DNA of 57,689 bases from an uncultured Candidatus Saccharibacteria bacterium (GTDB taxonomy: Bacteria; Patescibacteriota; Saccharimonadia; Saccharimonadales; Saccharimonadaceae), in NCBI GenBank assembly GCA_946537195.1, contig CAMNFE010000002.1, positions 1 to 57,689 of the forward strand, in the 5' to 3' direction. Made by a program: the position numbers and the translations under genes. The notes beneath the pieces are model-generated. The model did no database searches. It had not been told where the DNA came from and worked only from the letters and a program-made list of their open reading frames with translations. Positions 710 to 21,036 of this stretch are shown here, piece by piece (positions within the stretch are counted from its first letter, which is position 1; each line of letters opens with the position of its first letter).

Positions 710-1411
710 CTATACTCCGTCAGCCTTCAAAAGCAACACATCTCTCCTATTTTTTATAGCCCCATCGCAAGTAGACAACATCACATATTTTTCTGCACCA
801 GTATTTTCTCTTTTTATTAGGGCATTATCAATTATCTTTTTAATAACGCTCATGCGATTGTGGCTATATTCTAGGTTATAAATTTCCCAATCATTCGCCT
901 TAACCTCGGCGTAAGCTATTATCGAATAATGTATCGTTTCTTGTGTTCTTTTTATTATTGCCTTCCTATGCTCATCGAAAAACTGACGATTAGCAAATTT
1001 TTGTATGTTCGAAAACATTTCGCCATTCCCCATCCTGTGCCCATAAATTACCGAGAAAGTGTCACTAAAATCATTATTGTTCCGATAATCCAAGAATAAG
1101 CTGCCTGCTGTAGCAAAATCTCCTTTATAATTCCGATTTAAAAACCAGCTATTGTCATTACTTTGTACCACAGGATAATTTATATTCGTATCCATAACTT
1201 CTAGTCATGCAATCGTATATTCACTATCTTCACTAATTTCCTCAAACAGCGCCTCGTTGTTATCATCGCCTACTAGCTCAATCAAACCTCTATCTATTAC
1301 TGAGCTATTTGATACTAATAGTAGATCCACAATCGCATACATACCAATAAATAAGATCGGAAATAATATCGAAAATAATAAAAGGTCTAAAAACCTATCA
1401 ATCCAGCGCAT
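710..1411 (-). pseudogene. Class B sortase interrupted by in-frame TGA
   Basis: A 233-codon reading frame with one TGA at 1205-1207 (codon 69). An N-terminal membrane segment (about residues 8-33) leads into the sortase fold. Catalytic His125 (in YGHRMG), Cys215 (in LSTCDG) and Arg222/223 are all present. Alignment with the intact sortase at 18813-19535 places the TGA exactly at a conserved Trp (VAW-I there, IA-stop-L here), so a single TGG to TGA change is the simplest cause. The frame after the stop is otherwise clean. The start ATG overlaps the stop of the upstream signal-peptidase-like gene (TAATG), indicating translational coupling. Expected role: transpeptidase joining pilin subunits or anchoring them. 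Alternatives are rare read-through or a sequencing error. Confidence 0.8.
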
Positions 1412-1695
1412 TAAAAACCTCGTACGCTTAGTTCGGCTATTACTTTTCCTCGAATCTCACCGCTATAGCCATCACCATATATAAACGTCTCTCCATCCAT
1501 CTTCAAGAGCACATCACCCGCTCCGTAATCTTTACAAACCCTACAAAACAAGAGTAAATCGCCGTCAACATTGCCGTAACCACGCATAACGCCAAACAAT
1601 ATTCCGAATAATACATATCCAGCTAAAGTGATGAAAATACCTTTCAAAAGAAGGCGCACCCACCCGCGCCATTTTTGTTCTTTTATTTTGAGCAT
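1411..1695 (-). CDS. Minimal signal-peptidase-I-like (SipA-like) protein
   Basis: A 94-residue protein with one membrane segment (about 16-36). It aligns with both ends of the 177-residue protein at 19525-20058: the GDL and YG-GDV stretches of the S26 signal peptidase core, then a C-terminal part with GD-YSG-IRGKVI matching GDSRSYGG-IKGKVI. The middle domain is missing. The position of the catalytic Ser (GxSM in the family) is Val in GVM, and no general-base Lys is evident, so it should not be a protease. It sits between a pilin gene (13-nt overlap) and a sortase gene (1-nt overlap), the same order as in the larger locus. Likely an assembly factor like streptococcal SipA; this is inference from context and weak similarity. 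Confidence 0.6.
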   Translation of the reverse strand: MLKIKEQKWRGWVRLLLKGIFITLAGYVLFGILFGVMRGYGNVDGDLLLFCRVCKDYGAGDVLLKMDGETFIYGDGYSGEIRGKVIAELSVRGF

Positions 1696-2765
1696 TTTGT
1701 TTTTCGTTGTTTTTTCTTATTTACATGAACTATTGCCAAAATCATTCCCGCTACACCTAAAGCCAATACGTACGGCATCACATTCGTTACTATACCAGTT
1801 AATACGTTTCCTTCCTTATGATTCAAGAAATCGACCTTATTGCTCGATGCGCCTACTTCGGCCGAAATAGTTTTAGTCTCCGAAGTATTACCCGCAGTTC
1901 CGTCAACATATTGCGTATAACCGTTCGCGTCTACTTCTTCGATACTGTACTTAACCCCAATTGGCATCTGGTTATTATTACCGTCATACCCAATATAAAC
2001 CGTCTGGCCGTGTTTTAGATAAATATAGTCGTCTTTACCTCCTACCGTGATTGTATTGTCTGTTGTAATAGAAGCGCCATTATAGTCGACTACACTATCC
2101 TGACCAAATACCGTAAAGCTATCGCCTTCTTTCGCCCCATTAATGACGACTTTATATTTAAAATAATCGTTTACGTTTGCTAAATTACCACTAACCGTAT
2201 TAGTTACTTCTATTCGATTCCTCTGCGCAGCCGATTCAAACACAGCATTAGTTTTATCTCCAGTATCGTGATTTCTAACTTGCTCTGCCATCGTTGCAAT
2301 ATATTCATTAGTTGGCCTTCCGTCGCTATCGAGTTTATTTCTCACGCTTACATAAAAGTAATACTCTTTTTCACCGTCTATTGGATAATTAATCGGATCT
2401 TCGGAATCAATTTCGCGTACAATGAACTTATAGTCACCCAATGCCGAAAACACTGCGTCCGTCAAATGCACTCCTCCGGTAGATGATACGTCGCCATTAG
2501 TGTCAGGAGCCCCAGAAACGGCTATCCAAAAATTGTTCGATAATCCATTAATAACCGCCGGATTACTACTATCTTGGGTTAAAGAATATTGGAACATATT
2601 ATCGACTTCATTTGCGGCACCATGCACAATACGCTCCACCTTCATTCAGCTAGTCGTATCTGGATTGCTTCCCAATGTTGTTTCGATTGCATTAGCCCGA
2701 AAAGGCGCCATTAATGCGGCCATCATAAAGCTACACAATGCACCATACTTAATAATCTTTTTCAT
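1683..2765 (-). pseudogene. Sortase-dependent pilin with in-frame TGA
   Basis: Read from ATG at 2763-2765, preceded by a perfect GGAGG, the gene encodes a signal peptide (basic MKK, hydrophobic core, cleavage near RANA-IE), then about 12 residues, then TGA at 2646-2648 (codon 40). The same frame continues for 320 codons with pilin-type beta domains: an N-terminal FctA-like domain and a C-terminal Cna-like domain with YSIEE and a final VDFLNHK. It ends in a sorting signal: VLTG, hydrophobic segment, then a KKK-rich tail. The Lys expected at the start of the C-terminal domain (LTKTVAG in the paralogue) is Asn here (VTNTVSG), so that isopeptide bond is probably absent. Restart at the ATG after TGA would give a protein without signal peptide. 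Confidence 0.8.
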
Positions 2766-2856: not shown

Positions 2857-2886
2857 CAAAAAAGCACCCTGCTAAAGCATGAGTGC
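2857..2886 (-). terminator. Terminator of the GT2 gene
   Basis: On the minus strand GCAC...GTGC arms with inner complementarity (ATGCT/AGCA) precede TTTTTT, just after the glycosyltransferase stop. Confidence 0.7.
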
Positions 2887-18812: not shown

Positions 18813-19535
18813 CTATTCGTTATAACCCGTCAAGAGCACGACCCTCTTCGAGGTGTCCGAATAACAGGTCGAAAGGAGTAAGAGCCTGTCAGTCTTAACA
18901 TCTCTCGTATACCTGCCGCGCTCTTTGAAAAATTTCAAGACCGCTTCTGGCTTATTCGCATAAGTATCTACGTCATATATCTCTTGCGTATTATTATCAA
19001 TAATAGCGTAAGATAATACTTCTAAGTCATAGACATCATTTTCAAGATAATATTTGCCCTTCGTATGACTATCGAAAAATGTCTTATTGTTAAACATATT
19101 CAAATAGCCAAACATCGAATGACCACTCATGTTGTGACCATAAGCAACGACATATTTATCTTTAGCTAGCTTATTGCGATAATCTGCAAAAATGCTGCCA
19201 GCCAACGATGATTCTTTTTTAAAGTTATGATTCAAATAGAAGGTATTGTTACTAGTCTGTGTTACAGGGTAATCAATATCTGTATTGTCGATTTTAATCC
19301 ATGCTACAACATCCGGATTTGTTTCCTTCAATTTTTTCACACGGTCAAAATCGTCCGCGTCGGCAATTATTTTAGCCGCTTCCTCAATCTCTTTTCCGCT
19401 TTCAATTACGGAAAATGAGTCAAATATGGCATATATTCCAATGATCGCTATTACGGCAAATAGAAGTATAAACAAAACACTCAAACAACTATTGAAGACG
19501 TTTAAAACATCAACAACTTTTATCTTAGATCGCAT
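18813..19535 (-). CDS. Class B sortase (pilus assembly)
   Basis: A 240-residue class B sortase starting at ATG 19533-19535, which overlaps the end of the upstream signal-peptidase-like gene by 11 nt. N-terminal membrane helix (about 14-37), then the sortase beta-barrel with catalytic His134 (AYGHNMSGH), Cys224 (LSTCYS) and Arg231 (SKRVV). VAWIKIDN-DIDYPV is the typical class B start. In streptococcal FCT-3/T3 islands a class B enzyme (SrtC2) polymerises the pilus backbone, and this gene has the same neighbours: a pilin, an adhesin-like pilin and a SipA-like gene. It probably links pilin subunits by transpeptidation at the outer face of the membrane. Confidence 0.9.
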   Translation of the reverse strand: MRSKIKVVDVLNVFNSCLSVLFILLFAVIAIIGIYAIFDSFSVIESGKEIEEAAKIIADADDFDRVKKLKETNPDVVAWIKIDNTDIDYPVTQTSNNTFYLNHNFKKESSLAGSIFADYRNKLAKDKYVVAYGHNMSGHSMFGYLNMFNNKTFFDSHTKGKYYLENDVYDLEVLSYAIIDNNTQEIYDVDTYANKPEAVLKFFKERGRYTRDVKTDRLLLLSTCYSDTSKRVVLLTGYNE

Positions 19536-20058
19536 GAGTACGAAATACCCCAATCACTTTGCCTTTTATATTATCTTTGAAAATACCGCCATACGAACGC
19601 GAATCTCCAAATTCTTCACGATTGTCTCCCAGTATAAAGAATTGATCTTTGCTGAGTTTATAAGGGTACGAAAAATCAATCTTTTCCGGGAAAGCATTCG
19701 TTCCATATGAAGTTACATCCTCTACACCGCCGTTAACCGCGATGTTCTTTTTTTCGTCAACATCTACGACATCGTTATTTTGAGCGACTATACGCCCAAC
19801 ATGATCTACGCCATTTACGGAGTAAATTACTACGTCGCCAATGCCATAGTTGTCATCCAGTCTATAAATTAACGATAAATCACCATCCGATATTCTCGGG
19901 TGCATGATGTTACCATCTACGCGCTCAAAACCAAATAATCTAAAGAGCAATATATACATTACTAGCGTGAATAGAGCAATTTTTATCAAAATTGATATGA
20001 TTACTCTACCCACCCCAGCTTCAATCTTTAAAGATTTTTTGTTTTTAAGGTCATCCAT
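19525..20058 (-). CDS. Catalytically dead signal peptidase I homologue (SipA-like)
   Basis: A 177-residue S26-family protein with one N-terminal membrane helix (about 18-40). The family boxes are recognisable: VDGNIMHP-DGDL (box B), GDVVIY-HVGRIVA (box D) and GDNREEFGDSRSYGG (box E). The catalytic Ser of GxSM is Ile51 and the general-base Lys of KR is Gly88, so protease activity should be absent. This parallels streptococcal SipA, a signal-peptidase-like protein that lacks the Ser/Lys dyad and is required for pilus polymerisation. It lies 3 nt after the backbone pilin gene and overlaps the sortase gene. Probable role: chaperone for pilin delivery to sortase. Confidence 0.85.
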   Translation of the reverse strand: MDDLKNKKSLKIEAGVGRVIISILIKIALFTLVMYILLFRLFGFERVDGNIMHPRISDGDLSLIYRLDDNYGIGDVVIYSVNGVDHVGRIVAQNNDVVDVDEKKNIAVNGGVEDVTSYGTNAFPEKIDFSYPYKLSKDQFFILGDNREEFGDSRSYGGIFKDNIKGKVIGVFRTHAI

Positions 20059-20061
20059 GAA

Positions 20062-21036
20062 TTATTTTCTTGCAGACTTAGCATAGAATACTACAGCACC
20101 AGTAGCTACGAATGCTAACAAGATGTATGGCAATACGTTGAGAACTACACCAGTACCAACTGGGCTAGATTTCTTGTTTACATATGCAAACGTATTGTTT
20201 GCTACATCGGACGAAATAGTACGCTGGCCAGTAGATTTAGTGCTGCTCAAGCTGCCATTAATATAGGTCTGATAATCGTTATCTTCCTCAGTAATCGTGA
20301 AAGTAGTACCAGCATCTATCTGTTCAGTACCATTAGTTGCCTGACCAATTGTAACGGTTTCTCCGTGCTTTAAGGACACAGAACAGTCGGTTTGTGCAGC
20401 ACAAGTGCTACCACGACCAGTCGTAACATTTGTTATACGATAGTTAGTTCCACTAGTACCATTAACATTCACCGTAAAGTTGAAAGAAGCGTTCGTATCG
20501 CCACCTTTACCAGCAACGGTCTTCGTAAGCACAATATGGCTTGGAGATGCGCCCTGGTCATAAGCAAACAATAAATCAGAAACCTTATTACCGCCGCTGT
20601 CTTTAATGTATGTCAAATGAGCAATATCGCCAGTAATATTATCATTTCCATCAACCGTATGTTCTACCGCAAAATAAAGATCAAAATATTCAGATCCTAG
20701 CGTACTATAGTTATTGATACCAGAAGTAGTAACTCTTACGACGGATTCTTTTGGCGTAGAGTCGTTAAAGTATAAATTACTAAGGTTTATAGTCTGACAA
20801 GCCCCGTCACCAGTTAACGAGAAACTGGTAATATTTCCGTTCATATTCGAATCTTGTCTTGTAAATGTATACTGCGCTGAATCCGTGCTGGTAGCTGGCG
20901 TGATATCCTGGCAAAGCTGAATCGATTCCGGATCGGTTACATAGACAGTATCAGCATAAGCTGCACCTTGTAGACCGACGACGCCTGCAATTGACGCTAC
21001 AAAGGTCAACCCCGTTAATATTATTCCTTTTTTCAT
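20062..21036 (-). CDS. Backbone pilin, sortase substrate
   Basis: A 324-residue secreted pilin. Signal peptide ends near AYA-DT. Two beta domains follow. The C-terminal one (about 165-285) begins LTKTVAGKGGD, contains TFTITEED and ends FAYVNKK, which supplies the Lys, Glu and Asn expected for an intramolecular isopeptide bond. The sorting signal is SPVGTG followed by a hydrophobic segment and KSARK. A good SD (AAAGGAAA) precedes the ATG. It is the second gene of the locus after the large adhesin. Likely the repeating shaft subunit because it is the smaller pilin and adjoins the assembly genes. Confidence 0.82.
   Translation of the reverse strand: MKKGIILTGLTFVASIAGVVGLQGAAYADTVYVTDPESIQLCQDITPATSTDSAQYTFTRQDSNMNGNITSFSLTGDGACQTINLSNLYFNDSTPKESVVRVTTSGINNYSTLGSEYFDLYFAVEHTVDGNDNITGDIAHLTYIKDSGGNKVSDLLFAYDQGASPSHIVLTKTVAGKGGDTNASFNFTVNVNGTSGTNYRITNVTTGRGSTCAAQTDCSVSLKHGETVTIGQATNGTEQIDAGTTFTITEEDNDYQTYINGSLSSTKSTGQRTISSDVANNTFAYVNKKSSPVGTGVVLNVLPYILLAFVATGAVVFYAKSARK

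Follow-up and report, generated by a model that had tools for sequence, protein, structure and literature searches.

In-frame UGA codons conserved in competence and surface genes of a Saccharibacteria genus and their probable reading as tryptophan

The pilin-sortase operon and its in-frame TGA codons

The window described here is a stretch of 57,689 nucleotides from the genome of an uncultured Candidatus Saccharibacteria bacterium (G000; G017 and the other G-numbers designate relatives of the same genus). On the minus strand, from 2765 to 710, it encodes an operon of three genes, in the order pilin-like surface protein, 94-aa membrane protein, class B sortase (Table 1). The pilin-like protein has a signal-peptide-like start, a DUF7601 domain and a C-terminal membrane anchor. 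The 94-aa protein gave no match in the Pfam search and, judged from its position alone, would occupy the slot held by a signal-peptidase-like gene in a paralogous operon of the same window, none of whose genes contains an in-frame stop. The contig starts within the 3' part of a tRNA gene (positions 1-55; anticodon CGC, Ala, read by eye). A tRNA-Ala(CGC) was found near the operon in 10 of the 14 loci scanned, thus the surroundings of the operon are conserved.

Table 1. Coordinates of the features discussed in the text. Positions refer to the window, except where genome and contig are given.
Feature	Position	Strand	Remarks
Class B sortase gene	710..1411	minus	233 aa through one TGA; assigned by Pfam, NCBIfam and orthologues
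In-frame TGA of the sortase	1205..1207	minus	VAW Trp position; next codon CTA
94-aa membrane protein gene	1411..1695	minus	Between pilin and sortase; no TGA
Pilin-like surface protein gene	1683..2765	minus	360 aa through one TGA
In-frame TGA of the pilin	2646..2648	minus	Overlooked in the original prediction
Promoter-like motif ACTCATGCTTT	2874..2884	minus	Upstream of the pilin-sortase operon; common to other TGA-bearing units
Paralogous operon	18813-21036		Sortase, signal-peptidase-like protein (matches Pfam Peptidase_S26), pilin
Lamin-tail-like exported protein gene, G000	C29:6165-7670	minus	TGA in signal-peptide-like start
Lamin-tail-like exported protein gene, G017	C1:249312-250895	plus	TGA in signal-peptide-like start
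Extra motif site, G000	C12, 7472	minus	
Extra motif site, G000	C4, 7126	plus	
Extra motif site, G000	C10, 14721	minus	
Extra motif site, G000	C1, 62738	minus	
Extra motif site, G017	C2, 113212	plus	

The sortase gene had been predicted from the sequence of the window as a class B sortase interrupted by one TGA at a conserved Trp, with the catalytic residues kept, and this description was borne out. A single frame runs from 1411 to 710 and is interrupted once, at 1207-1205, and at the aligned position the intact sortase (18813-19553) has the Trp of its VAWIKIDN stretch. The read-through protein matches the Pfam Sortase model above its cut-off and scores 144.6 bits with the NCBIfam srtB model TIGR03064, slightly below the curated cut-off of 153.75. 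Residues His125, Cys215 and Arg223, which we take to be catalytic, are invariant across eight orthologues. The other sortase domains detected by Pfam in G000 contain no in-frame stop inside the domain.

Close orthologues of the sortase (51-54% identity) occur in seven other genomes and all seven carry an in-frame TGA. In each of the eight species TGA stands at one of two Trp positions and TGG at the other: the VAW position is TGA in G000 and G017, and the remaining six have TGA at the second position (about codon 174), where G000 has TGG. An additional TGA is present at codon 21 in G030. When 45 genomes were searched with the read-through sortase, at least one TGA was found in 14 of the 43 that matched, including six more distant sortases (G004, G011, G013, G027, G028 and G035). 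The original prediction had left open a recent loss of the gene. In the relatives the half downstream of the TGA was found to be under purifying selection, and recent loss is refuted because the TGA recurs in other species' orthologues at about 50% identity, TGA is the only stop involved and selection persists downstream of it.

The pilin gene carries its own TGA, 14 codons past the point (ANA, read by eye) at which the signal peptide is probably cleaved. It stands at the same codon in the orthologues of the same eight genomes and is followed by AT in all of them (TGA-AT, 8/8). Distant homologues lack a Trp at this position and have Q, L, S, T or N instead. A conserved RNA structure was looked for at the pilin site and none was found. 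Reinitiation after the pilin TGA was discarded, the next codon being ATG in just two of the eight orthologues and ATA or ATT elsewhere. In the pilins of G024 and G004 the TGA is situated downstream of a terminating TAA.

Genus-wide occurrence of in-frame TGA codons

The TGA of the sortase had been presented as a feature of one gene, a view that does not hold, as the second operon gene and several unlinked genes carry TGA too. These were detected by a survey of the genes common to G000 (781 kb) and G017 (740 kb), in which the frame that won the cross-genome comparison was kept at each place (576 conserved segments in G000 and 554 in G017, plus a run with shorter segments); TGAs in the first codons can escape this procedure. 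Tandem genes aside, the units in which an in-frame TGA joined conserved segments in both genomes were, among the matches listed, pilin, sortase, comM/yifB, comF (two sites), comEC (two sites) and a cutinase-like exported protein. They are dispersed over the chromosome. When 45 genomes were searched, at least one TGA was present in comF in 36 of 39 matched genomes, in comEC in 26 of 45, in comM in 16 of 37 and in the cutinase-like gene in 17 of 39. The control, a Trp-rich glycosyltransferase gene adjoining the operon, contained no stop in 39 of 39. At the level of the class (392 genomes, 321 of them matched), the comF TGA was confined to this genus among the matches listed. All genomes are draft assemblies. 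The relatives that bear TGAs are separately named assemblies (sheep rumen, yak rumen, UBA3225, RUI495 and others), and since these Candidatus Saccharibacteria assemblies come from separate projects the TGAs are not the error of one of them.

The column counts and those that follow refer to the best 30 of the 39 (comF), 45 (comEC) and 37 (comM) matched genomes, to 21 of 39 for the cutinase-like gene (30 loci, partial ones excluded) and to the eight-genome clade for pilin and sortase; the comEC TAG of G016/G036 and the pilin TGA of G008 have no located position in these counts. Altogether, 127 sequences of the six genes contain 144 in-frame TGA, 378 TGG and 5 TAA/TAG codons, and the share of TGA expected among one-step nonsense opportunities is only 0.227. 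Of the five TAA/TAG, three fall in the last ten or so codons of comEC, one terminates a pilin, and the remaining one, a TAG, is internal to the cutinase-like gene of G021. In comEC of G024, G031 and G015, the final codons (KYGKIYxC) are conserved despite a preceding TAA. Downstream of the first TGA, dN/dS was 0.04-0.31 in 17 of 18 close-pair comparisons (G003, G023, G039), the exception being the sortase pair G003-G023 (1.37; 56 codons, six changes). Judging by this selection, the downstream parts are probably translated.

Several alignment columns indicate which residue the codon stands for. At comF column 199 there are 24 TGG and 6 TGA, at comM column 169 there are 14 TGA, 11 TGG, 3 Val and 2 Phe, and at comEC column 337 there are 24 TGG, 4 TGA and 2 Phe (best 30 genomes in each case). 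Most TGAs of comF occupy variable linker positions (columns 44-60) that are not Trp and hold many residues in other species. Trp is therefore directly seen at some sites only, given that the pilin homologues and most comF sites are non-Trp. Since 29 of the 30 aligned comF genes (best 30 of 39 genomes) carry at least one TGA, in this gene the presence of a UGA seems to be kept and its place to drift. Relative to a shuffle of Trp codons, sequences with one or more TGAs are significantly overrepresented for comF (P 0.003), pilin (0.022) and sortase (0.027), which supports such retention in these three, and not for comEC (0.89), comM (1.0) and the cutinase-like gene (0.57); these P values are optimistic, and guides rather than tests, because the sequences are related and not independent. 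Taken together, the alignments argue that the inserted residue is very probably tryptophan.

The nucleotides that follow the codon are also biased. Termination in E. coli is best with U at position +4 and worst with C or A. After the in-frame TGAs the +4 base is A in 64, C in 38, G in 12 and T in 11 of 125 unique contexts, a distribution that differs from that at TGG sites (p 2.8e-8) and at genuine TGA stops (p 1.4e-5), the latter having U in 41 of 125 versus 11 of 125 at the in-frame codons. The suspicion raised by the CTA that follows the sortase TGA, a context known as leaky in other systems, proved well placed: CTA/CTG is the commonest next codon (26 of 125 contexts versus 18 of 347 after the TGG codons of these genes). 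In-frame UGAs thus favour weak-termination contexts, with A or C at +4 and often UGA-CUR. With respect to location, in comF, comEC, pilin and the cutinase-like gene the TGAs are early (median relative position 0.09-0.24) and the TGGs late (0.62-0.94); the TGAs of the sortase are not early (median 0.75). A stop conserved between species, coding selection downstream and a stimulatory context, three marks of programmed readthrough, were found in these genes.

The upstream regions of the TGA-bearing units have in common the motif ACTYAYGCTTT, or the looser form RCTYRYGCTTT, a putative promoter element. All 11 positions were matched in 20 of 30 upstream windows for comM, 18 of 21 for the cutinase-like gene, 15 of 20 for pilin and 6 of 20 for comEC (20 of 30 regions, partial matches excluded), the comEC matches being weaker than those of the other units. 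As background, 884 windows upstream of conserved genes in G000 and G017 gave 9 full matches, and three of the nine were comM/comEC themselves. The exact motif is absent from comF (full match in 0 of 30, 10 of 11 positions in 4 of 30), where a conserved variant, ACACTCTTAAGCTTT or a form close to it, takes its place. The 69 sites of the other genes served for a weight matrix, which was scanned on G000 and G017 and predicted, in one scan, another TGA-bearing gene that proved true in both genomes. It encodes an exported lamin-tail-like protein; G000 has two TGAs among its first nine codons, G017 has one, and the codons concerned differ between the species. Through the extra motif sites of Table 1 the matrix also hits dprA, topA, the rpsF operon, dnaX and rubrerythrin, which show no TGA in the parts read (apart from comM and comEC, the names of motif-hit genes were assigned by eye from the sequence); by these hits the motif set may represent a wider DNA-processing regulon. 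Two copies of the motif lie 23 bp apart in G000 (C14, 9471 and 9448, minus strand), close to where an ileS-like gene ends; a trans-acting factor was sought at this pair and none was found, nor was a counterpart of the pair found in G017.

Decoding of UGA and alternative explanations

UGA remains a stop codon in these organisms. As had been stated for the window, TGA is a genuine terminator elsewhere, ending 62 of 405 counted conserved frames in G000 and 63 of 410 in G017. G000 has an intact RF2 that contains no frameshift; in the 740 kb of G017 searched RF2 was not found and RF1 alone was seen. The only Trp tRNA found is a tRNA-Trp(CCA), identical in both genomes, which has a 5-bp anticodon stem, A9 and G24 (stem read by eye), and on these grounds a Hirsh-type or 4-bp-stem tRNA-Trp was discarded. 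A tRNA with UCA anticodon, suggested originally as a possible decoder, was not detected by ARAGORN in the incomplete assemblies of G000 (~781 kb) and G017 (740 kb), where relaxed ARAGORN settings yielded merely scattered low-grade matches. A UCA anticodon-loop/T-loop pattern occurred in 2 of 45 genomes versus 3 for the reversed control; the matching CCA pattern found tRNA-Trp once in each genome. No tRNA-Sec was detected by ARAGORN in the sequence searched of G000 and G017. A-to-I editing by TadA was considered and dropped, as its known context is missing.

The earlier suggestion that the TGA is sometimes read is supported, with Trp as the amino acid, and the in-frame UGAs almost certainly undergo readthrough. 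The mechanism proposed here has several steps. The ribosome would read UGA as tryptophan in comEC, comF, comM/yifB, the pilin-sortase operon and two exported proteins, most of these genes being presumably transcribed behind the shared RCTYRYGCTTT motif. The ordinary tRNA-Trp(CCA) would be the near-cognate decoder, competing with RF2 for UGA. The UGAs would add a second lock at the level of translation, and full-length proteins would be made only at high levels of readthrough, such as under limiting RF2 or in the state that transcribes the regulon. The steps supported by the sequences are the conservation of UGA and of the downstream parts, the exchange with UGG at Trp, the restriction to few units and the weak-termination contexts. 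As a whole, we advance with good confidence that conserved UGAs of a competence and surface regulon are read through as Trp by near-cognate tRNA-Trp, probably as a translational lock.

The least credible alternative is that the genes are pseudogenes, that the stops are sequencing errors or that UGA has been reassigned genome-wide. In-frame stops are usually a sign of decay and the assemblies are all drafts; however, mixed stops or frameshifts and relaxed selection, as expected of pseudogenes, contrast with 144 TGA against 5 TAA/TAG and low dN/dS, and identical TGAs recur in separately named assemblies. Reassignment is at odds with the UGA terminators kept in both genomes, with RF2 in G000, with the lack of a UCA tRNA in the searches described above and with the 1619 TGG present in the conserved segments of G000. 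Insertion of selenocysteine or another special amino acid is highly improbable: UGA is indeed the Sec codon and several sites are non-Trp in homologues, but the conserved columns exchange with Trp, the ARAGORN searches of G000 and G017 gave no tRNA-Sec and the pilin site revealed no conserved structure.

Two further explanations accept readthrough and concern its agent and its purpose. A dedicated decoder, such as an unusual suppressor tRNA, a tRNA-modifying enzyme or an RF2 antagonist active when the regulon is on, is distinctly unlikely; the restriction to one genus and to few units among the matches listed would fit a state-specific factor, but neither ARAGORN (G000, G017) nor the anticodon-loop pattern (2 of 45 genomes, 3 in the reversed control) pointed to a UCA tRNA. 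Near-cognate tRNA-Trp is the most economical decoder because a CCA-only Trp tRNA, the lack of a UCA tRNA, an intact RF2 and continued termination at UGA coexist, and we consider it likely that this tRNA, rather than an unseen suppressor, reads the codon. It is also conceivable, although unlikely, that the codons are a tolerated leak in genes that are rarely needed, so that basal readthrough suffices and the two codons UGA and UGG, nearly synonymous there, drift with no regulation. The swap between TGA and TGG at Trp columns agrees with such drift, as does the lack of an excess of TGA-bearing genes for comEC, comM and the cutinase-like gene. Against it, the TGAs are confined to few units (among the matches listed for G000 and G017), mostly with one motif, and are not spread across low-expression genes; comF acquires TGA at non-Trp linker positions, and 36 of 39 genomes have one; the pilin TGA is found in 8/8; and in four of the genes TGAs come early and TGGs late. 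On this evidence the UGAs are regulatory, rather than merely tolerated, with reasonable probability. In a broader form of the regulatory reading, for which the chances appear about even, the lock would be regulon-wide, that is, the late competence genes (comEC, comF, comM) and the exported and pilus genes, most of them behind one promoter-like motif, would each hold their own UGA and the set would be made only when UGA is read as Trp. DNA uptake and contact with surfaces would thereby pass through a second checkpoint, in which the presence of the UGA is selected and its position drifts.

Comparison with known recoding systems

The CS3 pili of enterotoxigenic E. coli are reportedly made by bypass of an amber codon, as Jalajakumari et al. 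are said to have described in 1989. Both there and here a pilus gene contains an in-frame stop that needs to be bypassed; CS3 involves UAG, one gene and one strain, whereas here UGA is found in several unlinked genes across a whole genus. Among the CPR bacteria, Gracilibacteria/Absconditabacteria (JAEDAM01) have a genome-wide UGA-to-Gly code; in the Saccharibacteria examined here the reading would instead be gene-restricted and insert Trp.

Reports of conserved stop readthrough that inserts an ordinary amino acid are rare for bacterial chromosomes: PMC1914089 names pathogenic E. coli as the sole experimentally confirmed case with a canonical amino acid known to it, and proposes that such an in-frame stop could serve as a switch. 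An unlinked gene set conserved across a genus would allow control of a regulon by readthrough to be tested, as well as how an intermediate state of UGA between stop and sense is maintained. In the open literature no paper was found that ties Saccharibacteria or competence to UGA readthrough, subscription journals lying largely outside this scope. According to PMC10633639, Saccharibacteria are naturally competent and comEC is required. Genes that carry UGA would be annotated as broken or split, and competence would therefore be wrongly scored as lost.

The closest cases concern UGA read as Trp. PMC13092985 describes family JAKLIH01 (Patescibacteriota, class Minisyncoccia) as having UGA reassigned to Trp; the family lacks both RF2 and UGA terminators, and two of four genomes contain a UCA tRNA. 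The phylum and the reading of UGA as Trp are shared with the present case; unlike JAKLIH01, the Saccharibacteria studied here keep RF2 and UGA terminators, and no UCA tRNA was found in them. The same source reports that a tRNA-Trp(CCA) with a 4-bp anticodon stem reads UGA by superwobble, a type from which the tRNA-Trp seen here differs by its normal 5-bp stem, A9 and G24, judged by eye (PMC13092985). Leaky UGA read as Trp is documented for E. coli, Salmonella and Bacillus subtilis in PMC7918605, and the decoding suggested here by the sequences would be of that kind, near-cognate Trp insertion in competition with RF2. In those bacteria leaky UGA is a matter of background or of laboratory mutations, whereas here it involves conserved coding positions under selection (PMC7918605).
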